Shown here: piece by piece, positions 1 to 18,825 of the stretch
Numbering within the stretch: position 1 is the first letter of the stretch
How the letters are laid out: every line of letters begins with the position of its first letter
Virus record (IMG/VR): IMGVR_UViG_3300021957_006329
Location: 1-61,614 of that record
DNA: 61,614 nt
Strand: one strand, 5' to 3'
Source of the DNA: a virus
Program-made: the position numbers and the translations under genes
The notes under the pieces: generated by a model
The model's database searches: none
What the model saw: only the letters and a program-made list of their open reading frames with translations
Told to the model about the DNA's origin: nothing

Positions 1-48
1 CACATCATCTTGACCTGATTGCAGCAACTAGATAACAGATCAAATAAG

Positions 49-77
49 TTGCAGCATTTTGCAACAGACACTATCAT
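49..77 (+). promoter_or_regulatory. sigma70-type promoter, leaderless geometry
   Basis: TTGCAG, a 17-nt spacer and TATCAT, ending 6 nt before the ATG at 84. The expected transcription start falls on that ATG. Confidence 0.6.
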
Positions 78-83
78 ACAATT

Positions 84-230
84 ATGGACAGAAAGACAGC
101 ATTACAACATTTGATCTGGAGAGAAGACAATTTGAGACTCTTCAAACCAAAACTTTTCAATCGAGCTCGACTGGATCGGCTCAAGAGAGAGCTCGATGAG
201 CTCGGAGGCACGACTCACGACGAACAATAA
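84..230 (+). CDS. hypothetical small basic protein (48 aa)
   Basis: I do not recognise this gene. The reading frame runs from ATG 84 to TAA 230 and encodes a highly charged, Arg/Lys- and Glu/Asp-rich helix-forming protein with no membrane segment. There is no Shine-Dalgarno sequence. Instead a TTGCAG-N17-TATCAT promoter ends 6 nt before the ATG, a geometry shared by many genes here, and this supports the start. The next gene, at 268, has its own copy of the same promoter arrangement. Probably an early accessory gene. Confidence 0.6.
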   Translation: MDRKTALQHLIWREDNLRLFKPKLFNRARLDRLKRELDELGGTTHDEQ

Positions 231-231
231 G

Positions 232-260
232 TTGCGCTTCAGAGCAGCAGACACTATCAT
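232..260 (+). promoter_or_regulatory. sigma70-type promoter, leaderless geometry
   Basis: TTGCGC, a 17-nt spacer and TATCAT, ending 7 nt before ATG 268. The stretch CAGACACTATCATA is repeated from the promoter of the gene at 84. Confidence 0.6.
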
Positions 261-267
261 ATAAACA

Positions 268-423
268 ATGAAGATAAGATCAACAATACGCGCCAAAGGC
301 ACTCAGCCTCATCCACGCAAGAACAAGACACTGCCACGCAAGCACAAGCATCGTGGATGGGCGTACGACCTAGGATTCAGCACAGGCGTTGTGGCCGGCA
401 CGATCAAAAACACAATCAGTTAA
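268..423 (+). CDS. hypothetical small basic protein (51 aa)
   Basis: Not recognised. ATG 268 to TAA 421-423. The N-terminal half is strongly basic, with an alternating Pro/Arg/Lys/His stretch, followed by a small Gly/Ala/Val segment (GFSTGVVAGT). It could bind nucleic acid, but nothing specific shows that. Its promoter repeats that of the preceding gene, so the two small genes are probably expressed together early in infection. Confidence 0.55.
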   Translation: MKIRSTIRAKGTQPHPRKNKTLPRKHKHRGWAYDLGFSTGVVAGTIKNTIS

Positions 424-436
424 CCAAGGAGAATAT

Positions 437-631
437 ATGTACACAATATTGAGAGGCAAAACCGCAGTGATCGACTGCGACACATTACCAACAGCGATCA
501 GGTTCGTTCAGAGTCTGGAGAGTGGATTGAACAGACACAAGAGTCATTCACCATACACCATCGTCAAGACCAGCAACTTGAGTCCGGACATCAACACCAA
601 TCATTCGCCTCGAATGACAGCAGCAGAATAA
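437..631 (+). CDS. hypothetical protein (64 aa)
   Basis: Not recognised. I chose ATG 437 over the in-frame ATG at 389 because AGGAGA lies 5 nt upstream (427-432) and because the longer frame would overlap the gene ending at 423. The product is short and soluble, with a beta-rich N-terminus (MYTILRGKTAVIDC). It is one of the few genes here with a classical ribosome binding site and lies 13 nt downstream of the preceding stop, so it is probably co-transcribed with it. Confidence 0.6.
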   Translation: MYTILRGKTAVIDCDTLPTAIRFVQSLESGLNRHKSHSPYTIVKTSNLSPDINTNHSPRMTAAE

Positions 632-634
632 AAG

Positions 635-663
635 TTGACCATCACAACGATATAGAATACAAT
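635..663 (+). promoter_or_regulatory. sigma70-type promoter with normal leader
   Basis: TTGACC, a 17-nt spacer and TACAAT. The expected start near 670 leaves a leader of about 40 nt carrying AAAGGAAAG before ATG 712. In this it differs from the leaderless promoters elsewhere in the window. Confidence 0.6.
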
Positions 664-711
664 ATAAGAATAATCAGGCAATCAAGCCATCAATCAAACA
701 AAAGGAAAGTT

Positions 712-1059
712 ATGAAGAAGTCTCGCAAAACCAAACATTTTTACTCACTCAACAACGCCGCTGGCGCACCAGTCAACATCGACCTGAACAACTACAAAGT
801 GACTTGTGTCAAGACTGGCAAGAGCAAAAGCTTCTATCACAAATACCTGTTCAATCTGATCAGTCGCAAGTACGAAGGCAACATCGATCTGTTCCGCACC
901 ACATATCAGAGCAGAGAAGCGGCTCCTTCTCGCGAGGATCGACGCAAGCAACAACTCCAAGAAAGAATCAACAAACTGTTCGTTCAGATCAGCAACCTCA
1001 AAGGAGAGTTGGCAGAGATCGACAGCGGAGTGCAACACTTTCCTCTGGCCAACAAATAA
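712..1059 (+). CDS. hypothetical protein (115 aa)
   Basis: Not recognised. The ATG at 712 follows a good ribosome binding site (AAAGGAAAG, 701-709). The basic N-terminal half has a possible HKYLFNL-type helix. The C-terminal 40 residues are a predicted coiled coil rich in Glu, Gln, Lys and Leu (ERINKLFVQISNLKGEL), so the protein may form dimers. The gene has its own sigma70-type promoter and is followed by a strong terminator, making it a single-gene early unit. Confidence 0.65.
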   Translation: MKKSRKTKHFYSLNNAAGAPVNIDLNNYKVTCVKTGKSKSFYHKYLFNLISRKYEGNIDLFRTTYQSREAAPSREDRRKQQLQERINKLFVQISNLKGELAEIDSGVQHFPLANK

Positions 1060-1082
1060 CTTTCTTCCATAACTGATCCTGT

Positions 1083-1123
1083 GAGGGGCTGGTGAAATCC
1101 AAGTAACCAGCCTCTCCTTTTTT
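1083..1123 (+). terminator. intrinsic terminator
   Basis: GAGGGGCTGGT (1083-1093) pairs with ACCAGCCTCTC (1106-1116), with one G-U pair and a 12-nt loop, followed by a run of six T. It lies 24 nt after the stop at 1059. Confidence 0.85.
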
Positions 1124-1135
1124 CACCTTTTATAG

Positions 1136-1164
1136 TCGACAAAATCATCAACAGTTCATACAAT
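1136..1164 (+). promoter_or_regulatory. sigma70-type promoter, leaderless geometry
   Basis: TCGACA, a 17-nt spacer and TACAAT, ending 6 nt before ATG 1171. Confidence 0.55.
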
Positions 1165-1170
1165 TATATC

Positions 1171-1635
1171 ATGAAGACAATCACATTACTACTCACGGCA
1201 ATCATCATAGGATTGAACGCACATGCTGATGACACATTTGTACCATCACATCGACTAGCAGCTGAGCTCAGGTTTGAAGCCCACAGAGCAGGTGAATCGT
1301 TTGAGGATCACACACCAGCGTTACCATCACTGACAGCTGACACCAGACAATTGTACAAGGATCGTACTCAAGCCAACACCGATCGACGAGTCGGTGCCAT
1401 GCTGGCCAAGTATGAACAACAGTATGTCAAACACACTCAACAAGATCAGACAATTGATCAGACAATCGCTGAACAGATCAATCAACTGCAACAGACAATT
1501 GACGACCAGAACAAATTGGCCCAACAACAACAAGATTCAAATCTGGCTCGAGCTGCCATTGGTGGTGGCGGATTGTTAGCAGGTGCAGCGAGCGCAGGGT
1601 TGTTTTTCAGAAGGCGCAAGCAGCTAGCTAGCTGA
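1171..1635 (+). CDS. exported coiled-coil protein with C-terminal membrane anchor
   Basis: The family is not recognised. The N-terminus is a clear signal peptide: Lys at position 2, a hydrophobic core (ITLLLTAIIIGL) and a likely cleavage after AHA near residue 19. The middle is hydrophilic and helical, with a Gln-rich coiled coil at about residues 85-125. The C-terminus has a Gly/Ala-rich membrane segment (GGGGLLAGAASAGLFF) followed by RRRK. This resembles bacterial tripartite C-terminal sorting signals, but no motif identifies a class. The protein probably sits in the host envelope, and a role in superinfection exclusion or spanin-like lysis is possible but unproven. It is transcribed from its own promoter. 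Confidence 0.65.
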   Translation: MKTITLLLTAIIIGLNAHADDTFVPSHRLAAELRFEAHRAGESFEDHTPALPSLTADTRQLYKDRTQANTDRRVGAMLAKYEQQYVKHTQQDQTIDQTIAEQINQLQQTIDDQNKLAQQQQDSNLARAAIGGGGLLAGAASAGLFFRRRKQLAS

Positions 1636-1641
1636 CCAACA

Positions 1642-1717
1642 GCTGAGACACTGACACTGTCTCAGAAGCCCCTCCGCTGAGTCACCGGGTGTGAAACTAT
1701 GTGATAGATGCGGAGGG
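1642..1717 (+). terminator. two tandem hairpins, possible terminator region
   Basis: CTGAGACA (1643-1650) pairs with TGTCTCAG (1658-1665). CCCTCCGC (1670-1677) pairs with GCGGAGGG (1710-1717) around a 32-nt loop. Only a short T run follows directly, but AT-rich sequence with runs of T lies at 1746-1771. This 220-nt stretch between genes holds nothing else recognisable. Confidence 0.45.
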
Positions 1718-1846
1718 TTTGGTGTGTTGAAATAAGTGCATGGGAAAATTTTTTGCGCAATTTTTTTTATATTTTGTACATTAGGTTTTGCCTCCCCCAC
1801 GACCTGAGCGGAGCGAATTAATACATTGCATCTCAGAATTTCGTAC

Positions 1847-1854
1847 ACTAAATA
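1847..1854 (+). promoter_or_regulatory. late promoter box ACTAAATA
   Basis: A T4-type late box ending 5 nt before ATG 1860. Confidence 0.6.
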
Positions 1855-1859
1855 ACCAC

Positions 1860-2213
1860 ATGGAACAGCATGTCGAATACATTGGATACCTCGCAGGATT
1901 GTTGAGTCTGATCACGTGGTTACCACAATTACAGACCGTGTGGATCAGGCGAGATCACCAGACACTCGATCCACGTGGGGCCTGGCCACTCAGCCTGTCA
2001 CTCATCAGCTGGGGTGTGTACGGCACGATCACTCACAACTGGTGGTTGCTCATCGGGTGCATCATCGGATTGACCATGACTCTCAGCATGATCTATCGGA
2101 TTCGAACACTCAGAAAACAGCATGCCGACAGAAACGACCCATTGTCCGCTCACGCCGGCTACAAACTCACACATGTGGAACGTCGACGTGGCTGGAGCCA
2201 ACCGGACTGGTGA
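1860..2213 (+). CDS. SemiSWEET/PQ-loop family membrane protein
   Basis: 117 aa with three predicted membrane helices at about residues 5-20, 43-60 and 63-85, the triple-helix unit of SemiSWEET and PQ-loop transporters. Helix 1 carries the family Pro-Gln signature in TWLPQLQTVW, and helix 2 (SLSLISWGVYG) has the small-residue and aromatic pattern of the family. In bacteria these proteins form homodimers that move small sugars across the inner membrane. The hydrophilic C-terminal tail of about 30 residues is longer than usual. The start at 1860 is fixed by a late box 5 nt upstream; an in-frame ATG at 1788 would lengthen it without family support. Transport of a sugar is inferred from the family only. 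Confidence 0.75.
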   Translation: MEQHVEYIGYLAGLLSLITWLPQLQTVWIRRDHQTLDPRGAWPLSLSLISWGVYGTITHNWWLLIGCIIGLTMTLSMIYRIRTLRKQHADRNDPLSAHAGYKLTHVERRRGWSQPDW

Positions 2214-2285
2214 AACACCATGACAGGCGGCAGGCTTGTGTTGCTACGCAACGTTACCGACGACCGGTGACCAATGAGAGTATAA

Positions 2286-3047
2286 ATGAAAATTGCACAT
2301 ATCATCAATGTATTTGAAATACACGAAAAACACAAGGCAAATTATTTGCACATAGCACAACCTGTCACAATTCAAAGCATGATAGATGCTAGAAATAATT
2401 CAAACGAGGGGCTTGGGGTGGATTTGTATGCAGTAACGGATAGGAATGAAACGGTGGATATGCCCGACGAGTTTACCATGACGAAGGATTTGCAGAGGTG
2501 TTGTTATGATGTTATTGACACTTTACCGAAAACGAAGTCGTTTCCACTTATTGGTGATATTTTGGAAAGTTTATATCATGCGTCTGATGCAGATTATTTT
2601 ATTTATACAAACACTGACATTGGGTTGTTTCCAAATTTTTACGATTTCGTTGAAGAAAAAATAAATGAAGGATTCGATGCTCTTTGTATCAATCGTAGAG
2701 ATATGCCAAAGAAAGTGACTGGTGAAATAATTGATGAACATAATTTTCAAAAAGTATTTGATTTGAAGGGTATATTTCATCCTGGGAAAGATTGTTTTGT
2801 TTTTAAGAGAAGTTTGGTTAGTCGGATGAAATTGGGAAATGTGTTTCTCGGGGCCCCTCCGGTGGGTGGTTTCTTGTTAGACAATATTAAAAGAAATGCG
2901 ACTAATTTTACTTTGATCAACGGCACGAGTATCGCGGTTCCACGACTGGTTACATTTCATCTTGGTCGCGACCGCGATTGGAAGAGGCGGAAGAATGAAT
3001 ATTGGGTGGAAAACAGGCGACAAGCAAAGCTTTGCGGCTTTGGATGA
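2286..3047 (+). CDS. putative glycosyltransferase-like protein (GT-A type)
   Basis: 253 aa. The segment YFIYTNTDIGLFPNFY (about residues 99-114) looks like the nucleotide-sugar and metal-binding strand of GT-A glycosyltransferases, with an N-T-D in place of the usual D-x-D. Further hydrophobic strands flank it. No membrane segment or signal is present. The start codon overlaps a TATAAATG sequence, and GAGAG lies just upstream. It opens the sulfotransferase and sugar gene run that follows, which supports a role in glycan assembly. The exact family and substrate are not known to me. Confidence 0.5.
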   Translation: MKIAHIINVFEIHEKHKANYLHIAQPVTIQSMIDARNNSNEGLGVDLYAVTDRNETVDMPDEFTMTKDLQRCCYDVIDTLPKTKSFPLIGDILESLYHASDADYFIYTNTDIGLFPNFYDFVEEKINEGFDALCINRRDMPKKVTGEIIDEHNFQKVFDLKGIFHPGKDCFVFKRSLVSRMKLGNVFLGAPPVGGFLLDNIKRNATNFTLINGTSIAVPRLVTFHLGRDRDWKRRKNEYWVENRRQAKLCGFG

Positions 3048-3095
3048 AATGAAAATCACTTTAGGGGATACTACGGGTAGAAAAAAGAATTAATT

Positions 3096-3103
3096 TATAA
3101 ATA
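3096..3103 (+). promoter_or_regulatory. late promoter TATAAATA
   Basis: Exact T4-type late box, 7 nt before ATG 3111, ahead of the first sulfotransferase gene. Confidence 0.7.
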
Positions 3104-3110
3104 TTATTAA

Positions 3111-3764
3111 ATGATCAACCATGAACATAAATTTATTTTCATACATGTACCACGGACAAGTGGTAGCAGTATTGAACTGCAGTTCGGTTACAACGATTTA
3201 GACCCCAGGAGGTCCGCGGCACGCGGCTGCAAACATGCCGGGAACTTACACCAGAAACATTGGACGTTGAAACAATGGAAGCAACATCTGGATGCATCTA
3301 CATTTGAGGGATATTTCAAGTTCACAATTGTTAGAAACCCATGGGATCGTATGATAAGCAAATATTGTGCCCCTGGTGATTTCGGTCCAATTGGATTACT
3401 CGCAGGTAAATCGCTGAAATATTTTCTAAACAGATATCATCATCTATCAAATCTGAATAATATAGGTCGATGTAACAGGTGGTTGAACTGGGAACATGGA
3501 GAGACTCTAGTCGATTATTTTGACCCGGAGCAGATGGACTATGTTGGTCGATTTGAAACTCGGGAAGAAAGCTTGGATTATATATCACAAAAAATAAATT
3601 TTCCACTGGACCGTAATGTTCAATTCCGGGAATGTCAAGCTAATATCAAACGTAAGAATGTGGGTCATCACTACACCAAATACTACGATGATGAGACTCG
3701 TGAAATAGTTGCACGACGTTACGCACAGGACATCGAGTTGTTCGGGTACGAATTTGGTAAATAA
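3111..3764 (+). CDS. sulfotransferase (Sulfotransfer_2-like), paralogue 1
   Basis: 217 aa. The N-terminus HKFIFIHVPRTSGSSIE is the PAPS 5'-phosphosulfate-binding loop of the heparan/carbohydrate sulfotransferase family. FTIVRNPWDRMISKY, at about residue 75, is the 3'-phosphate-binding motif. The C-terminus ends with the block HYTKYYDDETREIV and DIELFGYEF, which all five neighbouring genes share. Such enzymes move sulfate from PAPS to a sugar hydroxyl. Cellular homologues are often Golgi proteins, but this one is soluble. It is the first of five tandem paralogues and the most diverged from copies 2 and 3 in the middle. The acceptor is unknown but probably a phage- or host-made glycan. Confidence 0.85.
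   Translation: MINHEHKFIFIHVPRTSGSSIELQFGYNDLDPRRSAARGCKHAGNLHQKHWTLKQWKQHLDASTFEGYFKFTIVRNPWDRMISKYCAPGDFGPIGLLAGKSLKYFLNRYHHLSNLNNIGRCNRWLNWEHGETLVDYFDPEQMDYVGRFETREESLDYISQKINFPLDRNVQFRECQANIKRKNVGHHYTKYYDDETREIVARRYAQDIELFGYEFGK
3756..3763 (+). promoter_or_regulatory. late-like box GGTAAATA
   Basis: The box overlaps the stop codon of paralogue 1 and ends 6 nt before ATG 3770. The AAATA-ctaac-ATG pattern matches the boxes of paralogues 3 and 4. Confidence 0.4.
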
Positions 3765-3769
3765 CTAAC

Positions 3770-4399
3770 ATGAGATGTTCATTCAAACATAAATTTATAT
3801 TTATACATGTACCGAAAACCGCTGGTTCGAGTATCGATACACGGTTGAATGGTTTTAATGATTTAAAATCACTATACAAACACGAAGGTATTCCATTCGT
3901 CAAAAATGTTACAATGAGCCGGGAATATATACAAACTATACCTGCTCACATTAGTTCTCGCGAGTTGAAAGCGGTGCTAGGGCAAAAGTATGACAACTAT
4001 TTTAAATTTGCGTTTGTGAGGGACCCATGGGATTGGAAGCTATCGACATACAAATATATACTCAAAAACCGGAAACATCCGGCACATGAAACATATAAAA
4101 AATTCAAAAGCTTCCATAACTATATAATCGCAACACCACACCGACCACGACAACAGTCTGATTACATATACTCTACAGATGACAAACCACTGGTTGATTA
4201 TGTAGGTCGATTCGAACAGCTGCAAAAAGACTTCACCGATATTTGTAAAATTATTGGTTTACATAATAGTAAACTTCCACACAAAAACAAAACAAACCAT
4301 AAACACTACACCGAATATTACAATGATGAAACAAAACAAATTGTTACGGAACGATACGCACGTGACATCGAGTTGTTCGGGTACGAATTTGGTAAATAG
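3770..4399 (+). CDS. sulfotransferase (Sulfotransfer_2-like), paralogue 2
   Basis: 209 aa, starting 5 nt after paralogue 1. It has the PAPS loop FIFIHVPKTAGSSID, the 3'-phosphate motif FAFVRDPWDWKLSTY and the common C-terminal block ending DIELFGYEF. Three segments are base-for-base identical to paralogue 3: 3962-4041, 4117-4234 and 4355-4442. The stretches between them are well diverged. That mosaic pattern points to recent gene conversion or partial duplication. The N-terminal and linker regions that differ are the likely acceptor-specificity parts. The function follows from the family; the acceptor is unknown. Confidence 0.87.
   Translation: MRCSFKHKFIFIHVPKTAGSSIDTRLNGFNDLKSLYKHEGIPFVKNVTMSREYIQTIPAHISSRELKAVLGQKYDNYFKFAFVRDPWDWKLSTYKYILKNRKHPAHETYKKFKSFHNYIIATPHRPRQQSDYIYSTDDKPLVDYVGRFEQLQKDFTDICKIIGLHNSKLPHKNKTNHKHYTEYYNDETKQIVTERYARDIELFGYEFGK
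3962..4041 (+). repeat. 80-bp direct repeat, copy 1 (copy 2 at 4651-4730)
   Basis: Identical 80 bp inside paralogues 2 and 3, covering the region up to and including the RDPWDWK 3'-phosphate motif. Confidence 0.95.
4117..4234 (+). repeat. 118-bp direct repeat, copy 1 (copy 2 at 4806-4923)
   Basis: Identical 118 bp inside paralogues 2 and 3. It encodes the region from NYIIATPHRPRQQ to RFEQLQKDF. Confidence 0.95.
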
Positions 4400-4442
4400 T
4401 GTTCACTATATAACCAAAATAATGTATAAATACTAACATGAT
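4355..4442 (+). repeat. 88-bp direct repeat spanning gene end, promoter and next start, copy 1
   Basis: Identical to 5044-5131. The unit holds the last codons of one sulfotransferase, the 38-nt spacer with a TATAAATA late box, and the first codon of the next gene. Confidence 0.95.
4425..4432 (+). promoter_or_regulatory. late promoter TATAAATA
   Basis: Exact late box ending 5 nt before ATG 4438, inside the duplicated 88-bp unit. Confidence 0.75.
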
Positions 4443-5088
4443 CTTTTCGCAAAAGCATAAGTATATTTTTGTACATATACCAAAAACCGCCGGTACCAGT
4501 GTCAGTCGACTATTACGACCATCAGCTACACAGGGTAATCAATTTGATATCAATTATTTGAAGTTATTGTGTAAACATGAAGGTGTTTCGTATGTTAGAC
4601 CGACCAATTCGGTTTTTATAAAAACAGGACCTAATCATATATCTGCTGGGGAGTTGAAAGCGGTGCTAGGGCAAAAGTATGACAACTATTTTAAATTTGC
4701 GTTTGTGAGGGACCCATGGGATTGGAAGCTCTCAAATTATAAATATGTACTCAAATGTCATGGTCATAGAGCACATAAACTTTATGCATCATATAAGAAT
4801 TTTCGTAACTATATAATCGCAACACCACACCGACCACGACAACAGTCTGATTACATATACTCTACAGATGACAAACCACTGGTTGATTATGTAGGTCGAT
4901 TCGAACAGCTGCAAAAAGACTTCGATACAGTCTGCGACGAAATAGGTATACCACAACAACAACTCCCGCACAAAAATGCTACAAAACACAAACACTACAC
5001 CGAATTTTATGATGAAGAAACACGAGAAATTGTTGCGGAACAGTACGCACGTGACATCGAGTTGTTCGGGTACGAATTTGGTAAATAG
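4438..5088 (+). CDS. sulfotransferase (Sulfotransfer_2-like), paralogue 3
   Basis: 216 aa. It has the PAPS loop IFVHIPKTAGTSVSR, the 3'-phosphate motif FAFVRDPWDWKLSNY and the common tail HYTEFYDEETREIV with DIELFGYEF. It shares three perfectly identical DNA blocks with paralogue 2, and its downstream spacer repeats the one upstream of it. The region after the PAPS loop is unique. Its own TATAAATA box lies 5 nt before the ATG, so each copy can be transcribed separately late in infection. Confidence 0.87.
   Translation: MIFSQKHKYIFVHIPKTAGTSVSRLLRPSATQGNQFDINYLKLLCKHEGVSYVRPTNSVFIKTGPNHISAGELKAVLGQKYDNYFKFAFVRDPWDWKLSNYKYVLKCHGHRAHKLYASYKNFRNYIIATPHRPRQQSDYIYSTDDKPLVDYVGRFEQLQKDFDTVCDEIGIPQQQLPHKNATKHKHYTEFYDEETREIVAEQYARDIELFGYEFGK
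4651..4730 (+). repeat. 80-bp direct repeat, copy 2
   Basis: Identical to 3962-4041. Confidence 0.95.
4806..4923 (+). repeat. 118-bp direct repeat, copy 2
   Basis: Identical to 4117-4234. Confidence 0.95.
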
Positions 5089-5131
5089 TGTTCACTATAT
5101 AACCAAAATAATGTATAAATACTAACATGAT
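5044..5131 (+). repeat. 88-bp direct repeat, copy 2
   Basis: Identical to 4355-4442, including the TATAAATA box and the first bases of the following gene. Confidence 0.95.
5114..5121 (+). promoter_or_regulatory. late promoter TATAAATA
   Basis: Exact late box ending 5 nt before ATG 5127, a duplicated copy of the box at 4425. Confidence 0.75.
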
Positions 5132-5759
5132 AATATCACATAAACATAAGTATATTTTTGTAAAAACAGCAAAAGTTGCAGGGACATCAGTTGAAATTTT
5201 TTTCCAGCAAATGTCATTTGAAGGCGCACCTCAACATAGTTGTGCGATGATAGACAATGAGGATGGTATAGTAGGTTCTCGTGGTGATCTTTTCTCTCAA
5301 GGACTCAAAGGAGTTGAATGGAAGAATCATCATACATTACCTAGAATTAAAAAATTACTCGGTAATGATAAAATGTTTAATGAGTATTTTAAATTTAGCG
5401 TCACAAGAAATCCATGGGATCGTGTTGTTTCTAAATTGCATCATAAAAAATCTCTTGCTACATACGGTACGAATCCGTTGGCCGCGGGTGGACCGAAACC
5501 AATAGTAGATTATTTTGGAGATTTTATAGACGATGTACACTTTATAAGGTTTGAAAATTTACAGGAAGATGTTGAATATGTTTGTGAGAAACTAGGTCTT
5601 GATTATGACATGAATAATCTTGGTACATACAAAAGCGATCACCGGGAACATGCGAGACACAAACACTACACCGAATACTACGATGATGAAACTCGTGACA
5701 TTGTTGCAAAAAAATATGCAAAAGATATTGAGTATTTCGGTTATAAATTTAGAGAATGA
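5127..5759 (+). CDS. sulfotransferase (Sulfotransfer_2-like), paralogue 4
   Basis: 210 aa. The PAPS loop is YIFVKTAKVAGTSVEIF, a variant with AKVAGTS in place of PKTAGTS. The 3'-phosphate motif is FSVTRNPWDRVVSKL, and the common tail ends DIEYFGYKF. The middle, about residues 40-75, is unlike the other copies. It lies behind the duplicated spacer and late promoter but shares no long identical DNA with copies 2 and 3 beyond its first bases, so it is an older paralogue. Its base composition is more AT-rich than paralogues 1-3. Confidence 0.84.
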   Translation: MIISHKHKYIFVKTAKVAGTSVEIFFQQMSFEGAPQHSCAMIDNEDGIVGSRGDLFSQGLKGVEWKNHHTLPRIKKLLGNDKMFNEYFKFSVTRNPWDRVVSKLHHKKSLATYGTNPLAAGGPKPIVDYFGDFIDDVHFIRFENLQEDVEYVCEKLGLDYDMNNLGTYKSDHREHARHKHYTEYYDDETRDIVAKKYAKDIEYFGYKFRE

Positions 5760-5762
5760 GAA

Positions 5763-6365
5763 ATGATTAGTCATAAGCATAAATGTATTTTCCTACATAT
5801 CCCTAGATGTGGAGGTACTTCAATTGAAATAACTTTATGTGGGAAAAATTGGTTTAATGTAGATAGAACAACAAAACATCTTATCGGTTCAACTGCAAAA
5901 AAAATATACGAACCTTACTGGGATGATTATTTTAAATTTTCTTTTGTAAGAAATCCGTGGGCCAGAACAACCTCTCTTGGAAAATATTCCAGATTTTTTG
6001 GAGTTTCATTACAAAAAGGTAAGATTAATTTTGGAAGATATTTTGACAAATTTTACCCATTAGAAATAGATCACAGAAGTAAAAGCCATGAGGATTCATT
6101 TGACCCCATTGAAAATGCAATTTACCTTAATATTCTTAATGTGAAACTTGACTTTATTGGAAAATTTGAAAATTTACAACAAGACTTTAACATTGTTTGT
6201 GATCAAATAGGTATCTCTCATCAAAAGCTTGTTCATGCTGAAAAATCTACCGATAAAAATTACAATAAACACTACACCGAATATTACGACGATGAAACTC
6301 GGCAAATCGTTGCGGAAAAATACGCAAAAGATATTGAGCATTTCGGTTACAAATTTGGAGAATAA
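5763..6365 (+). CDS. sulfotransferase (Sulfotransfer_2-like), paralogue 5
   Basis: 200 aa, starting 3 nt after paralogue 4 and so probably translated from the same message. The PAPS loop is CIFLHIPRCGGTSIEI and the 3'-phosphate motif FSFVRNPWARTTSLG, with Ala in place of the usual Asp. The tail HYTEYYDDETRQIV and DIEHFGYKF is shared. GGAG near its stop codon may serve as the ribosome binding site of the next gene. Last of the five-gene array. Confidence 0.84.
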   Translation: MISHKHKCIFLHIPRCGGTSIEITLCGKNWFNVDRTTKHLIGSTAKKIYEPYWDDYFKFSFVRNPWARTTSLGKYSRFFGVSLQKGKINFGRYFDKFYPLEIDHRSKSHEDSFDPIENAIYLNILNVKLDFIGKFENLQQDFNIVCDQIGISHQKLVHAEKSTDKNYNKHYTEYYDDETRQIVAEKYAKDIEHFGYKFGE

Positions 6366-6370
6366 GATAA

Positions 6371-6934
6371 ATTAAAATCACTTTATTAGGTAATTGCCAA
6401 ACTATGGCATTGACATTTTATTTGCAGCAATTAAATAAAGATTTTGATGTTCAATGGATTCAATTGCATGGCGAATTAGGAAAGAAAATAGCATCAGAAG
6501 CAAATCACTGGGGCAAAAAGATAACGAAAATAAGTTCTATAGAAACTGGCATAGACAGGTTACAACAGTCAGATTATGTAATATTTCAACATTTAAGACT
6601 CAACACTAGCCCTCATTACAATTTAAAACAACTCAAAAAACATGTCACCAGAGGAAAATTAATTTCTATAAGTTCATTTTTTTACGATCCCAATGACCCA
6701 GACCAAAAATACCTCAAGAGTATGATAAGAAAAGCCGAAAGATTGAATATAGATATTCCTGCTCATAAAATCATAGAAAAACATGGTTCTAAAATTAAAA
6801 TTCAGAAAATAAACCACCCGCAGGTTTTTTATTTTCTAGAACTTGTGCGTGAAATTTGTGCAAAAACAGGCTGGAATTATTATTCCGACGAACAATACAA
6901 TCAATATTTAAAAGAAGGATATCCTTTTGGTTAA
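6371..6934 (+). CDS. WcbI-like polysaccharide biosynthesis protein, apparent AUU start
   Basis: The frame is open from 6371 and reads IKITLLGNCQTMALTFYL. This is the conserved N-terminal strand and GNCQ loop of the WcbI family, which acts in capsule polysaccharide synthesis. The only upstream start candidate in this frame is ATT 6371, since TAA lies just before it. ATG 6404 would cut off the GNCQ motif. A GGAG lies 10 nt before the ATT. So either AUU is the start or the gene has lost its ATG. The rest shows alternating strands and helices with no membrane segment. Length is about 187 aa. A second family member is at 42773-43687. The function is inferred from the family. Confidence 0.65.
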   Translation: MKITLLGNCQTMALTFYLQQLNKDFDVQWIQLHGELGKKIASEANHWGKKITKISSIETGIDRLQQSDYVIFQHLRLNTSPHYNLKQLKKHVTRGKLISISSFFYDPNDPDQKYLKSMIRKAERLNIDIPAHKIIEKHGSKIKIQKINHPQVFYFLELVREICAKTGWNYYSDEQYNQYLKEGYPFG

Positions 6935-6948
6935 CTATATATATTAGC

Positions 6949-7605
6949 ATGAGCATAAATTTATACACGTCCTATTATATTGATCAGGTTTCGATACGAC
7001 AACAAGAAATTGAATTGTGTATAAAGAAAAACTTGAATAACGATGCAGTTGATAAAATTTACATACTTGCTGAACCTGGTTCATGGGATATGAGGGATGG
7101 TAATCATGCGATATGTGATTCGAAATTAACTATCATCACACATGATCAACCCACATACAGTCACTTTTTTGAAATAAGCAACTCTCTGACCGGGGAGGAT
7201 GATATCAATATAGTCGTGAATAGTGACATTTACCTAGGGGATAACATACAGGATATATCATCTTTAGTTGACCATGATACTGTCGCATGTATATCCAGGT
7301 GGGAAAGTGAAGATGAGTTACAGGACCGGCCCCGCGGGGATAGCCAAGACACATGGGCATGGCGAGGTCGGATTAAAACCCCAGATAGTTGTAACTTTAA
7401 TCTAGGTGTCCCGGGATGCGACAACCGGATTGCATGGGAGTTAGCCAATGTAGGTTATCAATTGATAAATCCATGTCAAACGGTTAAAACATTTCATGTA
7501 CATGATTCAAAGATCCGGAACTATAGTGTTGCTAAAGCAATATCCCCTCCGCACCTATTTGTACCATATGGTAAGATTACACAATTGCCCGGGGAGGGTG
7601 AATAG
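6949..7605 (+). CDS. glycosyltransferase-like protein with SQDTW motif
   Basis: 218 aa. ATG 6949 was chosen because the longer frame from 6856 overlaps the WcbI gene. INIVVNSDIYLGDNI resembles a GT-A donor-site strand. Further on come the motifs SRWE, SQDTWAW, GVPGCDNRIAWEL, NPCQTVKTFHVH and IRNY. The same SQDTW...NP...IKTLHMH order is seen in the protein at 40976-41845, so the two are related. They lack a classical family name known to me. The context between a WcbI-like gene and rfbB supports a role in glycan assembly. Confidence 0.6.
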   Translation: MSINLYTSYYIDQVSIRQQEIELCIKKNLNNDAVDKIYILAEPGSWDMRDGNHAICDSKLTIITHDQPTYSHFFEISNSLTGEDDINIVVNSDIYLGDNIQDISSLVDHDTVACISRWESEDELQDRPRGDSQDTWAWRGRIKTPDSCNFNLGVPGCDNRIAWELANVGYQLINPCQTVKTFHVHDSKIRNYSVAKAISPPHLFVPYGKITQLPGEGE

Positions 7606-7626
7606 AATAATTTAAAATTTAGTATT

Positions 7627-8559
7627 ATGAAAAATATATTGGTAACGGGTGGGCTAGGTTTTATTGGAAGTAATTTCATAAAACATATATTCAACAAGTA
7701 TGACTATCATATTCACAATGTTGATCTTAAAACATATGCTGCGAGCTATGATAATATAAATGAAGAGATCAAGAAATCTGGAAGATACACACTGTCTATT
7801 TGTGATATCAATGACACAAATCGTGTTCGAAACTTAATCCATAAAAATAATATAAATTACATTGTTAATTTTGCGGCTGAAAGCCATGTAGATAACAGCA
7901 TAAACAATTCGACTCCATTCATTCACACCAACATCAACGGCACACACTCATTATTAACATTGCTACATGATTGTCCAAGTGTCGAGAGATACCTTCAAGT
8001 GTCCACAGACGAAGTGTACGGGAGTTTAAGCGAAGAAGATGAGGCTTTTACCGAAAACAATCCATTGCAAGCAAATAGTCCTTATTCTGCAAGTAAGGCT
8101 AGCGCAGATTTATTGTGTCGCAGTTTTTATGAGACTTTCAATTGTCCTATTTTAATTACTCGCTGTTCCAACAATTATGGTCCAAATCAACACGAAGAGA
8201 AATTGATTCCATTGATGATAAAAAATGTCAAGTCCGGTAAAAAACTTCCGGTTTATGGTGATGGGAGAAACATTCGCGACTGGATTCATGTCTCAGATCA
8301 TTGCTCTGGTATCGATGCAGTTTTACATGGAGGTAAAATTGGTGAAGTTTACAATATTGGGGGTAAGAATGAAGTCCGGAACATTGATATTGTCAAAACA
8401 ATTCTCGAACTACTAGGTAAAAATGAAGATCAAATTGAATTTGTGAAAGATCGATTGGGTCATGATTGGCGTTATGCAATTGATAATGGTAAAATTCAAA
8501 ATGAATTGAATTGGTTCCCTAGTGTATCCTTTAAGGATGGATTGAAAGAATTAATATGA
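7627..8559 (+). CDS. rfbB: dTDP-glucose 4,6-dehydratase
   Basis: 310 aa, a short-chain dehydrogenase of the extended type. The NAD-binding loop GGLGFIGSN is at residues 8-16. STDEVYG carries the catalytic Thr-Asp-Glu, and YSASKAS is the Tyr-x-x-x-Lys active site. NNYGPNQ, near residue 180, is typical of RmlB. The enzyme turns dTDP-glucose into dTDP-4-keto-6-deoxyglucose, precursor of rhamnose and of amino-deoxy sugars. The other rml genes are not in this window, so the final sugar is unknown or uses host enzymes. The protein is about 30 residues shorter than most RfbB, at the C-terminus. Confidence 0.9.
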   Translation: MKNILVTGGLGFIGSNFIKHIFNKYDYHIHNVDLKTYAASYDNINEEIKKSGRYTLSICDINDTNRVRNLIHKNNINYIVNFAAESHVDNSINNSTPFIHTNINGTHSLLTLLHDCPSVERYLQVSTDEVYGSLSEEDEAFTENNPLQANSPYSASKASADLLCRSFYETFNCPILITRCSNNYGPNQHEEKLIPLMIKNVKSGKKLPVYGDGRNIRDWIHVSDHCSGIDAVLHGGKIGEVYNIGGKNEVRNIDIVKTILELLGKNEDQIEFVKDRLGHDWRYAIDNGKIQNELNWFPSVSFKDGLKELI

Positions 8560-8596
8560 ATATTGAAATAAGATGTTTCAAACTGCATATATAGGT

Positions 8597-8604
8597 TATA
8601 AATA
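8597..8604 (+). promoter_or_regulatory. late promoter TATAAATA
   Basis: Exact late box ending 5 nt before ATG 8610. Confidence 0.75.
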
Positions 8605-8609
8605 GACGT

Positions 8610-8804
8610 ATGAATGAGAAATTAACCATAGGCTTTTTCTTGTTAGGTTGTGTGATAGTAACAGCCGTGATCATGGGGTTCAATCGTATCGAGCGGTTAG
8701 AAGACATCATTATCAAACAACAAGACACAATTGAACAACAAGACAAAGCGATCAGCATGCAACGGCTGGAGAATCAAGTGTTGCGCATGAACCTGGGTAG
8801 ATAG
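8610..8804 (+). CDS. small membrane protein with coiled coil (64 aa)
   Basis: One N-terminal membrane helix (residues 6-24, LTIGFFLLGCVIVTAVIMG) is followed by a Gln/Glu/Leu coiled coil of about 40 residues. The topology resembles small inner-membrane phage proteins, but no family is recognised. The start is fixed by a TATAAATA box 5 nt upstream, and there is no Shine-Dalgarno sequence. The next gene begins 5 nt after the stop. Confidence 0.65.
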   Translation: MNEKLTIGFFLLGCVIVTAVIMGFNRIERLEDIIIKQQDTIEQQDKAISMQRLENQVLRMNLGR

Positions 8805-8809
8805 TCACC

Positions 8810-9103
8810 ATGAAACATCTGGGGCAATTGTTGAGCAAGTTGCGTGGGTTGAACATTTTCAACTCGTTACCCACCGGGCAAGAACAGGTGCACTGGTTAG
8901 AGCATCTGGACGAGACTGTGGAGCTGTTGCGACAGGATCGAGAGGAGATCCTCGAGTGGATCTCCCATGAGGTGAAACGTGCAGAATTCAATGCTCACAA
9001 GTACCGGGGTATGGAAGATGTGGGTTATTACACCGACAAGGTTAAACTGTTCAAACGATTACAACAACATCTAGAACTATTGTTGACACCTGGTTCGTTA
9101 TGA
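8810..9103 (+). CDS. hypothetical helical protein (97 aa)
   Basis: Not recognised. It is almost entirely predicted helix, with Leu and Glu heptads (WLEHLDETVELLRQDREEIL) and no membrane segment. It starts 5 nt after the small membrane protein gene, suggesting a shared late transcript and possibly a shared complex. Confidence 0.6.
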   Translation: MKHLGQLLSKLRGLNIFNSLPTGQEQVHWLEHLDETVELLRQDREEILEWISHEVKRAEFNAHKYRGMEDVGYYTDKVKLFKRLQQHLELLLTPGSL

Positions 9104-9134
9104 TACTATAGGTGTTGATTTGTTGGACGTATCG

Positions 9135-9142
9135 ATTAAATA
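9135..9142 (+). promoter_or_regulatory. late-like box ATTAAATA
   Basis: Ends 8 nt before ATG 9151. One mismatch from TATAAATA and wider spacing than most. Confidence 0.4.
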
Positions 9143-9150
9143 GACACAAC

Positions 9151-9456
9151 ATGAACAGCGAACAACTAGAGGCTCATGCGGTAGATGCTATAAAACCTTA
9201 CACACAGGACATATATGTTGGACCTGACATCGAGACAGAGTGCATGGATCAAATATTGAATCCAACCACAGACGAACTCATGTACTTGCGACCGGTAACA
9301 AATACCGGTCGGCGTGTGATTGTGGCCAAGCTCAAGCATGTGGATGATTTGAAATCTATTAGCAAAGAGTTGATACCCATGTGTTTTGCTATCGGTCATT
9401 GTGTGAGCAACCCACGCCTCGAATGTGTGGTTAAATGGTACAATCTGGGTGAGTAA
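9151..9456 (+). CDS. hypothetical protein (101 aa)
   Basis: Not recognised. I chose ATG 9151 over the in-frame start at 9112 because an ATTAAATA box lies just upstream of it. Mixed alpha/beta protein with no membrane segment. The segment MYLRPVTNTGRRVIVAKL suggests paired beta strands. It overlaps the start of the next gene. Confidence 0.6.
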   Translation: MNSEQLEAHAVDAIKPYTQDIYVGPDIETECMDQILNPTTDELMYLRPVTNTGRRVIVAKLKHVDDLKSISKELIPMCFAIGHCVSNPRLECVVKWYNLGE

Positions 9457-9757
9457 AGCCTGGATCAAGCAGGCTAGTGTAGGTTATCAATCTCAGCGAT
9501 TGGACTCACTACTGGGTGGTGAAGATCATTGTTACAATGTGTGGCATGAACCCACCGGTGTTGTGTTGATGTACAAAAAACCACCAGGAGAAGACCTTGT
9601 ATATCGTGGGCAATTGGCCGTGGGGCCCAACTTCGAAAAATATTATACTGATTCTAGAATATCCAAATTAGCACCATTTGTAGCGGAGTTGATAGAGTCT
9701 CGTCGCAACTACATGAAACCTAAAAAAAAGCGTCGCAAGACTAAAAACGTCTCATGA
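9425..9757 (+). CDS. hypothetical protein with basic C-terminus (110 aa)
   Basis: Not recognised. The frame starts with ATG 9425, but a GTG at 9449 that overlaps the end of the upstream gene (GTGAGTAA) is an equally good start. The central part is beta-rich (CYNVWHEPTGVVLMYK). The last 20 residues hold a run of Lys/Arg (KPKKKRRK), which could bind nucleic acid. The 3' end overlaps the convergent minus-strand gene by 17 nt. Confidence 0.55.
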   Translation: MWLNGTIWVSKAWIKQASVGYQSQRLDSLLGGEDHCYNVWHEPTGVVLMYKKPPGEDLVYRGQLAVGPNFEKYYTDSRISKLAPFVAELIESRRNYMKPKKKRRKTKNVS

Positions 9758-10055
9758 TCTCACTCACTATTCTGTTCAAATTACCGGCCCAAAATTTGCG
9801 CGCTCTTATGTGATATGGTCTAGTGTCACTGATCAGCACTCCGGATTCTAGGTCCGGAGCCACAATATCATCGACAAAGTCAAAAGCTCCGCGGAGCTTC
9901 AAGTAGTTGTAGCAAGTGTCCTTGATATGATCATCCACCTGTATCACCACATCCACCTGTTTGAACACCTGAGCATACAAAGTCACATCTCGAAAACAGC
10001 TGGTGCTAGAAGGTGGAAATACCAGATTACCATCTATCAATAAAACCCTGCTCAT
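9741..10055 (-). CDS. hypothetical protein (104 aa)
   Basis: Not firmly recognised. It begins MSRVLLIDGNLVF, a hydrophobic strand followed by an acidic loop, and later has VVIQVDDHIKD and GVLISDTRP. This alternation of strands and acidic loops recalls Rossmann-like folds such as HAD or PIN, but the catalytic pattern is incomplete. It has its own late box, and its promoter region is shared back to back with the APS-kinase-like gene on the other strand. Confidence 0.55.
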   Translation of the reverse strand: MSRVLLIDGNLVFPPSSTSCFRDVTLYAQVFKQVDVVIQVDDHIKDTCYNYLKLRGAFDFVDDIVAPDLESGVLISDTRPYHIRARKFWAGNLNRIVSEIMRRF

Positions 10056-10064
10056 AACCTATTA

Positions 10065-10072
10065 TATTTATA
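10065..10072 (-). promoter_or_regulatory. late promoter TATAAATA (minus)
   Basis: Exact box on the minus strand, 9 nt before ATG 10055. It is divergent from the plus box at 10081. Confidence 0.6.
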
Positions 10073-10080
10073 CAATTATA

Positions 10081-10088
10081 TATAAATA
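10081..10088 (+). promoter_or_regulatory. late promoter TATAAATA
   Basis: Exact late box ending 5 nt before ATG 10094. Confidence 0.75.
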
Positions 10089-10093
10089 CTGTA

Positions 10094-10930
10094 ATGAAAA
10101 GAAAAATTCTAATAATGGGTTTACCGGGTAGTGGAAAGACCACACTGGCTGAATTGTTGGTGCCTAGAATAGGCGCGGCATGGTTTAATGCAGATGCTGT
10201 CCGGCAAGAGATTAGTTCAGATCTTGGTTTCGAAGAAAAGGATCGATTAGAACATGCGCGGAGGATGGGTAAGATGGTAGAGTTTGCAAGTAAGTATGGT
10301 ACATTTGCTGTCGCTGACTTTGTATGTCCCACCAAAAAGGCTCGTGAGCTGTTTGATGCAGATTTTACAATCTGGGTCGATCGGATCGAAGAAGGAAGAT
10401 TCAAAGACACAAACAAGATGTTTGAAAAACCGGAAGGGGCTGATCTAGTGCTACGTGACGGTACACCACAAGAGTGGTTGGAGCAAACAATGGAGCTACT
10501 TCAACCAGAGATGTGGGACAATCAAGCACCTACCGCTCTTTTGATTGGTAGATATCAACCTTTTCATCTAGGTCATAAGACGTTGGTAGAAGAGGCTTTG
10601 AGACGTAGTGGTCAGGTATGCATAGCCCTGCGAGACGTTGGAGGAATAGATGATTCTAACCCGTATAACTTTGAACAGGTGAAAAGGGAAATTCTAGAGT
10701 CATGCTCGGAGTTCGGTAACAAAATCAAGGTTATTGAGATACCAAACATATCGGATGTTTTTTATGGTCGTGGAGTTGGTTACAATATTGAAATGTTGGA
10801 ACTAGACAAAGAAATACAGGAAATATCTGCAACTAAGATACGCAAAGGTGATATTGATCAAAATGGTAACAAGTTAAAGAACACCGGTGGGAAGAACCCA
10901 TTCACTGGTATCGGTATTCAACCAGATTAA
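10094..10930 (+). CDS. APS-kinase-like / nucleotidyltransferase fusion protein
   Basis: 278 aa in two domains. Domain 1 (1-135) has the Walker A loop GLPGSGKTT (9-17), then FNADAVRQEI and DLGFEEKDRLEHARRMG. This last stretch closely follows the APS kinase pattern (DLGFsxxDRxENIRRxG), so phosphorylation of adenylylsulfate to PAPS is a reasonable prediction. Domain 2 (about 147-255) has GRYQPFHLGH (152-161) and ISATKIR (244-250), the two signature motifs of the HxGH nucleotidyltransferase superfamily that includes NMN adenylyltransferase and ATP sulfurylase. The pairing resembles PAPS synthetase in layout, but the second domain is closer to the NMNAT type. A polynucleotide or nicotinamide-related kinase role is the main alternative. 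Confidence 0.75.
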   Translation: MKRKILIMGLPGSGKTTLAELLVPRIGAAWFNADAVRQEISSDLGFEEKDRLEHARRMGKMVEFASKYGTFAVADFVCPTKKARELFDADFTIWVDRIEEGRFKDTNKMFEKPEGADLVLRDGTPQEWLEQTMELLQPEMWDNQAPTALLIGRYQPFHLGHKTLVEEALRRSGQVCIALRDVGGIDDSNPYNFEQVKREILESCSEFGNKIKVIEIPNISDVFYGRGVGYNIEMLELDKEIQEISATKIRKGDIDQNGNKLKNTGGKNPFTGIGIQPD

Positions 10931-11139
10931 TTGTAACCTGGGTATGTGCAACGAGGTTTTACATTATTAGCCTCTACATACGCATCCAAGAGAGCACGTT
11001 CTTGTAAGTAGCTACTCCTAGAATATGCGAATATATAATATTTGTTAGCGACAATTATACAAGCTAAGCTAGTTATGTCATACAACCATACTATGGTAAC
11101 AAAAGGTAACACTGTAAACACCCATACGATAATTTTCAT
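10927..11139 (-). CDS. small membrane-anchored protein (70 aa)
   Basis: Not recognised. It has an N-terminal membrane helix (IIVWVFTVLPFVTIVWLY), probably extending into ITSLACIIVA, then a basic hydrophilic tail. The stop overlaps the stop of the convergent plus gene (TTAA, 10927-10930). A strong minus-strand promoter, TTGAAT-N17-TATAAT, ends 6 nt before the ATG, and this is the main evidence that the gene is real. Confidence 0.6.
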   Translation of the reverse strand: MKIIVWVFTVLPFVTIVWLYDITSLACIIVANKYYIFAYSRSSYLQERALLDAYVEANNVKPRCTYPGYN

Positions 11140-11145
11140 ATCTAT

Positions 11146-11174
11146 ATTATAGTATATTGTTGAAAATTATTCAA
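11146..11174 (-). promoter_or_regulatory. sigma70-type promoter (minus), leaderless geometry
   Basis: TTGAAT, a 17-nt spacer and TATAAT, ending 6 nt before ATG 11139. The -35 region overlaps that of the divergent plus promoter. Confidence 0.75.
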
Positions 11175-11188
11175 TAGTAATATATAAT
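11160..11188 (+). promoter_or_regulatory. sigma70-type promoter, leaderless geometry
   Basis: TTGAAA, a 17-nt spacer and TATAAT, ending 7 nt before ATG 11196. Confidence 0.75.
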
Positions 11189-11195
11189 AACTATT

Positions 11196-11483
11196 ATGAA
11201 TGAAGCAATCAAAACAGCAATCAAGGGGGTATATTATGAGTTTTGTGGTAAACGTATGCAAGCAATTGCAGATCTAGACATACTGTTACAGCAAACAGTA
11301 GGGGTGGGAGACCATACAGACATATGTAAGGATATCAAAAATAAATATGAAGAGATTGACAAATATAATAGTCTGTTAGATACCATGAACGAGCAACATC
11401 ATGACATCACCATGGGAGAAACAGACCAACGGAAAGCTCAAGAACCTGCGAAAGATTGCGGGGATGACTGTGGATGTGATTAA
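11196..11483 (+). CDS. hypothetical protein with C-terminal Cys cluster (95 aa)
   Basis: Not recognised. It is mostly helical and acidic, ending with CGDDCGCD, a three-Cys cluster that could hold a metal or disulfide. It has a strong sigma70-type promoter with the predicted +1 next to the ATG, so it is probably an early gene. Confidence 0.65.
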   Translation: MNEAIKTAIKGVYYEFCGKRMQAIADLDILLQQTVGVGDHTDICKDIKNKYEEIDKYNSLLDTMNEQHHDITMGETDQRKAQEPAKDCGDDCGCD

Positions 11484-11498
11484 AAGTTAATGTTCTAG

Positions 11499-11506
11499 CA
11501 TAAATA
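11499..11506 (+). promoter_or_regulatory. late-like box CATAAATA
   Basis: Ends 8 nt before ATG 11515. Confidence 0.5.
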
Positions 11507-11514
11507 TACTTGAT

Positions 11515-12450
11515 ATGAACGAAGATGTAAACAATATTTTTTCCGGTTACAAGAAGATGCTCAATGAAAATGTACCTGCACCCGCGGCACCTGCGGCACC
11601 TGCGGCACCTGCTGCTGACGCTAGCCAAGCAATAGCCCAAGCGGAACAATTGTTATCTAATGGACCTGGACAAGATGCTGCTACATTACAGCAACAAGTG
11701 CAAGCGCTCACAACAGCGCAACAGGCGATCGCGCAACAAGTAGAACAACTCAATTTGCAGCGCGACAAGGTCGCTGATCAAGCAGCCAAAGGAATGGCTG
11801 TTCCAATGGACCCTAGCGGTCAAACACAAGTTGAAGCTCAAATTCAAAAATTGAACGACGGTATGACACAGTTGAGCCAATTAGCTCAAACTATAATAGG
11901 ACCCGCCCAACAAATGGGAGTTGATGTAAGTCCGTTGATGGAGTCATTAAATGAACTGTTTCAAGTGCTACAAGAATGTGCTAATTGGTATGTCAAGTGC
12001 TTGATACCGGAAAACGATGGAGCTTCTCTCACCAAGAGACATCAGCTCAAGTGTATGATTTTTGAAAATACAATTCCAACTGTAGAGGCTAGCCGGGAAG
12101 ATCGAGTCAAATCACAAAATGATATTATGAAACAAGATTTAGAAGATGAAGAGCCAGAATATTCAGCTCTTGATATGCTGGGTTTAGAGCCGGATGATTT
12201 TGGTCATGAAGATCCAGATCAAGCTGCTATGGATCGAATGGACGCTGAAGATGATACAGTTGACCTGGCCAACCATGACAGACCATCCAACGGACCAGAA
12301 GATGGTTTGATGGATGATATACATGCACTGGAACGTTTGTTAGATGATGAAACCAAAGCTGTGATGGATGATGAAGATGGAGCGGTTTCCCGGAGGGAAG
12401 CTCGTGAAATCGCCAAAGATATCATCAAGCAAATGATAGATAGACTTTAA
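11515..12450 (+). CDS. hypothetical acidic protein with Ala/Pro linker (311 aa)
   Basis: Not recognised. Residues 1-20 are a short helical head. An Ala/Pro repeat follows, with PAAPAAPAAP at about 22-33. Next comes a Gln/Ala-rich coiled coil (about 45-130) and a conserved-looking core with LIPENDGASLTKRHQLKCMI near 160-180. The C-terminal 120 residues are very acidic. The late box and this build would suit a virion-associated or scaffold-type protein, but there is no direct evidence. Confidence 0.6.
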   Translation: MNEDVNNIFSGYKKMLNENVPAPAAPAAPAAPAADASQAIAQAEQLLSNGPGQDAATLQQQVQALTTAQQAIAQQVEQLNLQRDKVADQAAKGMAVPMDPSGQTQVEAQIQKLNDGMTQLSQLAQTIIGPAQQMGVDVSPLMESLNELFQVLQECANWYVKCLIPENDGASLTKRHQLKCMIFENTIPTVEASREDRVKSQNDIMKQDLEDEEPEYSALDMLGLEPDDFGHEDPDQAAMDRMDAEDDTVDLANHDRPSNGPEDGLMDDIHALERLLDDETKAVMDDEDGAVSRREAREIAKDIIKQMIDRL

Positions 12451-16265: not shown

Positions 16266-16933
16266 TGATACCTAAACTACTGATTATTGGTTGGGGTGGC
16301 TCTGCGCAAACATATTTGTTGAGAACATTCAACAAATACACGATTACTAATCATTGGAATGATGTAGATACTGTCAAACACTGCACATATAATTATTTCA
16401 TTAACTATAATGGGTATGGTATCACAAAAGAGTTATTAGATAAAATACCTATAATATATGTATACTGTAATCCAGTAGATGCTATAAACAGCTTTTTCCG
16501 ACGCGGGTTCGCGAAGCAACAACATTACAAGTTGACCTGGGACCAAGGAAATACTCCACGATCTTTGAATTGGAATACCGATAAAGGATATACATATCCA
16601 CAAAAAAGTGACAATATTTTAAACTACATGCTTAGAGTTTCTCGCACCAAGCAGGATATTTTTGGTTTTAAAAATCATCTAGAGCAGTGGCTGTCTGCGA
16701 AGAAACTACTTCCAATGGAACTCGCTGATGTTATAGCGAATAAGGAACAGCTTTCAAACATATTGAATATACCAATAAATATATTCAACGAGATCAAGGT
16801 TAAGCCACGAAATACATATGAACCACTACCGAGTCATATAAATGCATATCATGAATATATGGATATGTATCACAAAGAATATACTGATATTCAGGGCATA
16901 GCTAAAAAACGTTTAACGAAGTTATTAAATTAA
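16265..16933 (+). CDS. divergent P-loop / sulfotransferase-like protein
   Basis: 222 aa from GTG 16265, which overlaps the nrdA stop (TAGTG). The N-terminus LLIIGWGGSAQTYLLRTF resembles a sulfotransferase PAPS loop, and IIYVYCNPVDAINSFFRR resembles the 3'-phosphate motif (RNPxDxxxS...R). The order and spacing fit a small cytosolic sulfotransferase fold, but identity to the five-gene array is low and key Lys/Arg residues are changed. Its place between nrdA and nrdB is odd, since these are normally adjacent or separated by homing genes. The prediction is tentative. Confidence 0.5.
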   Translation: MIPKLLIIGWGGSAQTYLLRTFNKYTITNHWNDVDTVKHCTYNYFINYNGYGITKELLDKIPIIYVYCNPVDAINSFFRRGFAKQQHYKLTWDQGNTPRSLNWNTDKGYTYPQKSDNILNYMLRVSRTKQDIFGFKNHLEQWLSAKKLLPMELADVIANKEQLSNILNIPINIFNEIKVKPRNTYEPLPSHINAYHEYMDMYHKEYTDIQGIAKKRLTKLLN

Positions 16934-18016: not shown

Positions 18017-18093
18017 TACCCCCATGTTACCTAAATACCAGTAGCTGGGTGCATTATATATGTAACAAAGGGGTGGGTCGCGGGAATTTTTTT
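18017..18093. terminator. structured region between convergent genes, possible bidirectional terminator
   Basis: TGTTAC (18025-18030) pairs with GTAACA (18062-18067). Outside it CCCC can pair with GGGG, and inside it CCAG-TAG-CTGG forms a small hairpin. A run of seven T ends at 18093. It lies between nrdB and the convergent repeat-protein gene. Confidence 0.45.
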
Positions 18094-18811: not shown

Positions 18812-18816
18812 TCGTA

Positions 18817-18824: not shown

Positions 18825-18825
18825 A

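Follow-up and report, generated by a model that had tools for sequence, protein, structure and literature searches.

The window, i.e. the whole 61.6-kb stretch of DNA that we analyzed, is a virus record (IMGVR_UViG_3300021957_006329) carrying myovirus genes (baseplate, ribonucleotide reductase, PhoH, and helicase). Between positions 3111 and 6365 it harbors five consecutive genes of the Sulfotransfer_2 / PHROG 3347 family, hereafter ST1–ST5, and this array adjoins a weakly WcbI-like gene and a nucleotide-sugar dehydratase gene. A second glycan cluster lies on the minus strand of the same contig (36698–48639), with genes for GDP-mannose dehydratase, epimerase, WcbI, and several glycosyltransferases. 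An open reading frame between both ribonucleotide reductase genes (16256–16933) begins like a nucleotide-binding protein and has no match in Pfam. An Rfam search found nothing. The sulfotransferase (ST) genes and the features within them are as follows.

3111–3764, + strand: ST1; Sulfotransfer_2 (PF03567, 4e-16), PHROG 3347; 61% to G97609_98199 by blastp
3729–3763, + strand: tail common to three genes; the 35-bp end of ST1, identical to 4364–4398 (ST2) and 5053–5087 (ST3)
3770–4399, + strand: ST2; Sulfotransfer_2 (PF03567, 2.7e-16); first member of the mosaic pair
3770–3961, + strand: diverged 5' segment of ST2; dS/dN 1.43/0.36 against ST3; includes the 5'-phosphosulfate loop
3962–4041, + strand: block 1 in ST2 (residues 65–91); 80 bp identical to 4651–4730; 3'-phosphate-binding motif FVRDPW
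4042–4116, + strand: diverged segment between blocks 1 and 2; dS saturated, dN 0.43 (ST2 against ST3)
4117–4234, + strand: block 2 in ST2 (residues 117–155); 118 bp identical to 4806–4923; HRPRQ and VGRFEQL motifs
4235–4354, + strand: diverged segment between blocks 2 and 3; dS/dN 1.05/0.38 (ST2 against ST3)
4355–4442, + strand: block 3, first copy; last bases of ST2 with its stop, the 38-bp spacer, and the initial 5 bases of ST3; same 88 bp as 5044–5131
4425–4432, + strand: late-promoter-like motif TATAAATA in block 3, ahead of ST3; further copies at 3096 (ST1) and 5114 (ST4)
4438–5088, + strand: ST3; Sulfotransfer_2 (PF03567, 8e-17); second member of the mosaic pair
4651–4730, + strand: block 1 in ST3 (residues 72–98); same 80 bp as 3962–4041
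4806–4923, + strand: block 2 in ST3 (residues 124–162); same 118 bp as 4117–4234
5044–5131, + strand: block 3, second copy; last bases of ST3 with its stop, the 38-bp spacer, and the initial 5 bases of ST4
5127–5759, + strand: ST4; Sulfotransfer_2 (PF03567, 4e-12)
5763–6365, + strand: ST5; Sulfotransfer_2 (PF03567, 2e-12)

All five products exceed the PF03567 gathering score (47–63 bits against a cut-off of 22). The AlphaFold model of ST3 (m4804f55b0435) has a mean pLDDT of 87, and its best PDB match is heparan sulfate 2-O-sulfotransferase (4ndz_B; VIA-align Z 10.9, rmsd 3.6, 179 residues); Foldseek matches of the model to the PDB are weak (best E 1.7e-3). The family profile aligns a KTGGTS loop and a RNPWDR..S motif with heparan sulfate 6-O-sulfotransferase 5t03. 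The 5'-phosphosulfate loop reads PKTAGTS in ST3 (residues 15–21), AKVAGTS in ST4, and PRCGGTS in ST5, and the 3'-phosphate motif of ST3 is FVRDPWDWKLS, of which R91 falls inside block 1. From these similarities, ST1–ST5 are predicted to be PAPS-dependent carbohydrate-type sulfotransferases. They are alike to PF03567 / PHROG 3347 phage sulfotransferases in family match (5 of 5) and to heparan sulfate 2-O-sulfotransferase in fold, over the 179 residues above, but differ in being short (~200–217 aa) and arranged in tandem.

Comparison of ST2 with ST3 reveals three exactly identical runs of 80, 118, and 88 bp, all at an offset of 689, and these are correct to the base in the preliminary description of this DNA. 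Its claim that strongly diverged stretches separate the blocks holds as well, with dS of ~0 within the blocks and from 1.05 to saturated outside them. When the same number of ST2/ST3 mismatches is shuffled, the longest run is at most 59 in two sets of 20,000 permutations. Only part of the 88-bp block 3 is coding sequence of a sulfotransferase, i.e. the last 14 codons, which are followed by the stop, the spacer, and the start of the next gene. Motifs conserved in the family coincide with block 1 and the tail, as would be seen if purifying selection on conserved protein parts had by itself, with no recombination, kept the DNA identical. The probability of this explanation is practically nil: it is refuted by the synonymous contrast, block 3 contains noncoding spacer, and the chance that independently encoded copies of the fixed peptides use the same codons lies between 10^-5 and 10^-16 (~10^-8.7, ~10^-15.6, and ~10^-5.3 for blocks 1, 2, and 3, respectively). 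Because the blocks lack synonymous differences and the stretches beside them are near saturation, the ST2/ST3 mosaic reflects recombination and not protein constraint. Identical tracts between paralogues within otherwise diverged genes, synonymous sites included, are the pattern by which interlocus gene conversion is recognized, and ST2 and ST3 show it.

It had also been proposed that the exchanges keep a cofactor-binding core and swap the acceptor region. This stands in part, as block 1 carries the 3'-phosphate motif. However, the 5'-phosphosulfate loop is outside every block, in a diverged segment (6 of 33 bases differ between ST2 and ST3), and therefore the cofactor site alone does not account for the blocks. 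Block 2 corresponds to no known cofactor loop, block 3 comprises the C-terminal helix, the promoter-like motif, and a start codon, and other arrays share other parts, i.e. the N-terminus and tail in locus L074 and only the tail in most others.

Analyses of related phage DNA reveal that this signature extends beyond the window. A scan with an alignment of the five proteins returned 77 loci, many with several ST genes, and the number of copies varies from 0 to 12 per related contig. Exact repeats of at least 35 bp that are separated by at least 200 bp were collected across 1.5 Mb of related loci, and 11 of 15 join two ST genes; such genes account for ~11% of the sequence scanned. For example, genes 1 and 4 of L074, which are not adjacent, have 95 bp in common at their starts and 133 bp (55 + 78 bp) at their ends, with a diverged middle between the shared parts (pS 0.3–0.97); a scan for a second assembly of this mosaic array returned the same contig only. 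In L062, L001, L021, and L058, the 3' ends of ST genes share 52–85 bp, and in L029 the 68 bp in common are inside the gene. The borders of the blocks vary between arrays. The recombination signature of ST2/ST3 is well supported and belongs to a pattern found across this family in marine phages.

Gene content and gene middles also differ between close relatives. Specifically, L070 and L076 are mostly 95–100% identical in neighboring DNA, and their ST gene is identical over the first 120 bp and then only 45–88% over the body. L068 and L070 come from different samples and are 100% identical across 5,890 bp, so the allele with the replaced middle did not arise from a single faulty assembly. L077 carries exactly one additional ST gene (5285–6035) that is absent from L076 (5940–6030) and joined at the tail stop codons; this difference is a natural insertion or deletion of one cassette. 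Between L017 and L046, the flanks are 97–100% (downstream) and ~93% (upstream) identical, the array bodies mostly 12–60%, with a 90-bp island at 96%, and the tails 66–82%. G014 (222 kb), the nearest relative that we found for the window, is collinear with it on the right side of the array and partly on the left (88% aa identity for the nrdA product and 81% for the neighboring adenylyltransferase-like gene), and at the same site it has an array of four genes in a different order, of which only one has a clear orthologue (61% aa to ST1). One further locus (L173, CAKZOO010000189), filed as a Flavobacteriaceae MAG, has an ST pair nearly the same as that of phage loci L005–L018; the contig thus probably comes from a phage and was binned with bacterial DNA.

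Collapsed ST genes are present in four places, where approximately the first 18–31 residues are fused to the last 7–25 residues of the tail and the middle is deleted.

L028 2620–2853: collapsed ST, in frame
L036 7149–7295 (L036/L135): collapsed ST, 49 aa, in frame
L063 8669–8833 (L063/L160): collapsed ST, 55 aa, in frame
L159 (G014 43261–43353): collapsed ST, out of frame

Tails alone, without a gene body, also occur at other places in related contigs, and together with the collapsed genes they fit repeated gain and loss.

The C-terminal tail is the most recurrent shared piece across arrays. The scans themselves relied on tail patterns, which biases how conserved the tail looks at the amino-acid level among the fetched sequences, and the results given here are therefore restricted to codons. 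Over the last 33 positions, where different phage contigs have an amino acid in common, they also share its codon more often than expected from codon usage, by a factor of 1.14 (bootstrap 1.10–1.18). The factor is 1.02 both at the N-terminus and in the tail of bacterial homologues, and 1.12 in the phage tails after leaving out pattern-matched genes. This modest excess fits a tail spread by recombination in the phage pool, with selection at the DNA level as another possibility. Concerted evolution of tails within contigs is unsupported (nearest-neighbor tests of 0.127 for tails and 0.116 for bodies); since tails in the same contig resemble each other no more than the bodies do, most tail sharing is pool-wide and not strictly within one array. 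We looked for tails fused to a body other than a sulfotransferase and found none. Next to the tail, the motif TATAAATA begins 13–15 bases 5' of ST1, ST3, and ST4, a spacing that we take to be one a T4-type late promoter might have; a DNA motif search finds it 22 times in the window, with 7.9 expected.

Given these observations, we consider it likely that the sulfotransferases of this marine T4-like phage occupy a hypervariable island in which ectopic homologous recombination operates. ST1–ST5 form a tandem array there, in which ST2 and ST3 are probably old sister copies that remain mutual closest kin even in their diverged segments and have exchanged DNA very recently. The event may have been patchy gene conversion, or conversion combined with unequal crossover at the gene junction. 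The homology for crossover would be provided by the conserved stretches, above all the 3' tail and the gene junction that follows it: exchange from tail to tail would add or remove exactly one gene, and exchange inside genes would yield chimeric genes whose middle is new. Which glycan positions are sulfated would then probably change fast. Recombination is probably carried out by the phage's own system; RecA-family genes are present in 8 of 10 contigs, and none is in the window, which is a 61.6-kb fragment. Phage recombination works between sequences that are 22% diverged (PMC2327257), and relatives of T4 have mosaic hypervariable regions (PMC2993671). Three observations strongly support the preliminary claim of recombination between paralogues: synonymous sites differ sharply between blocks and flanks, independent contigs show the same pattern, and close relatives have swapped segments.

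A different history, to which we give a low but appreciable probability, is that a recent tandem duplication produced identical ST2 and ST3 with the 38-bp spacer, and that diverged alleles from a related phage then replaced segments of one copy during co-infection, the blocks being the unreplaced remainder. Block 3 spans the whole spacer and the next start codon, as expected from tandem duplication, and replacement of a middle segment (L070/L076) and turnover of gene bodies (L017/L046) are directly seen. This scenario, however, requires a duplication plus three separate imports, and from a donor of the same subfamily, given that dN in the diverged segments of ST2/ST3 is 0.36–0.43 compared with 0.46–0.69 overall for other ST pairs. 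Searches found no donor. Viral contigs searched with ST3 and with the junction include no close relative carrying ST2/ST3, matches among phage GenBank records are only ~28% identical, and a scan with the downstream gene (6404–6931) returned no relatives. Because no such relative was found, import from another phage is not firmly told from transfer between paralogues. An assembly artefact, in which two strains or copies were misjoined at identical stretches, is very unlikely. The window is a single metagenomic contig, and assemblers err at such stretches, but each copy has three diverged segments of its own and an open frame, and misjoining could scramble the order of segments, not create identical blocks beside saturated divergence. 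Similar mosaics in independent contigs, and the replaced-middle allele shared by records of different samples, also speak against it.

That the array is diversified by a programmed system, one with its own dedicated enzyme and sites, is highly improbable. The recurrent tail with its excess codon identity between contigs and the retention of start and tail by collapsed genes would agree with such a system. Against it, neither reverse transcriptase (RVT_1, controls detected) nor tyrosine/serine recombinases (PF00589, PF00239) are found in the window or in four related contigs, all of which may be fragments, and GIY-YIG endonuclease is likewise absent from these sequences; no integrase or resolvase was found, positions 1–12000 of the window have no inverted repeats, and block borders differ from array to array. 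The suggestion that the mosaic is a way to make variants is borne out only insofar as it fits the swaps between relatives, with no sign of a dedicated or selected mechanism. It is doubtful that the array is a selected variant generator, in which tail and junction are kept alike in DNA as a recombination handle and ST bodies are traded like cassettes. If it were, phages could quickly alter the sulfation of virion or host glycans, and the collapsed start-plus-tail genes would be empty cassettes.

Ectopic homologous recombination, our preferred reading, has counterparts in known systems. As in ectopic gene conversion and unequal crossing-over of tandem paralogues, the array shows identical tracts with abrupt edges, gain and loss of units, and collapsed remnants, here in phage sulfotransferases, with transfer presumably from one paralogue to the other. 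Type I restriction offers a parallel in the shuffling of HsdS target-recognition domains, where conserved stretches are the homology for swapping variable specificity segments between paralogues. The ST array similarly may use conserved stretches as swap homology between paralogous copies but, unlike HsdS, is without inverted copies or an invertase, and by analogy the swapped parts might determine specificity. In T4-like phages, the textbook example of hypervariable genes is the tail fibers. In the present case, the changing part is a set of enzymes predicted to sulfate glycans. Phage homeologous recombination and mosaicism (lambda Red, PMC2327257; T4-type tail fibers, PMC2993671) likewise involve recombination of diverged sequences, conserved stretches joining variable ones, and hypervariable islands between conserved flanks; the units here, by contrast, are tandem glycan-sulfation enzymes, and exchange also takes place between copies in the same genome. 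No title or abstract in the open-paper literature was found on such ST arrays or their recombination. Recombination would let marine phages vary glycan chemistry, provided that acceptor choice changes with the swaps.

Repeats are also observed outside the ST genes. Related phages have exact repeats of 56–80 bp at L080 17172–17656 and L064 549–1373. In the window, a protein encoded on the minus strand (18092–18832) has three LDSNPNGDTRSGDWPRL-like repeats, with a 38-bp exact repeat, and its match to Cas7 is only sub-threshold and probably due to chance. Another open reading frame (31471–32169) ends, just 5' of its stop, in three to four 24-bp units (31475–31559; TETSELCG repeated).
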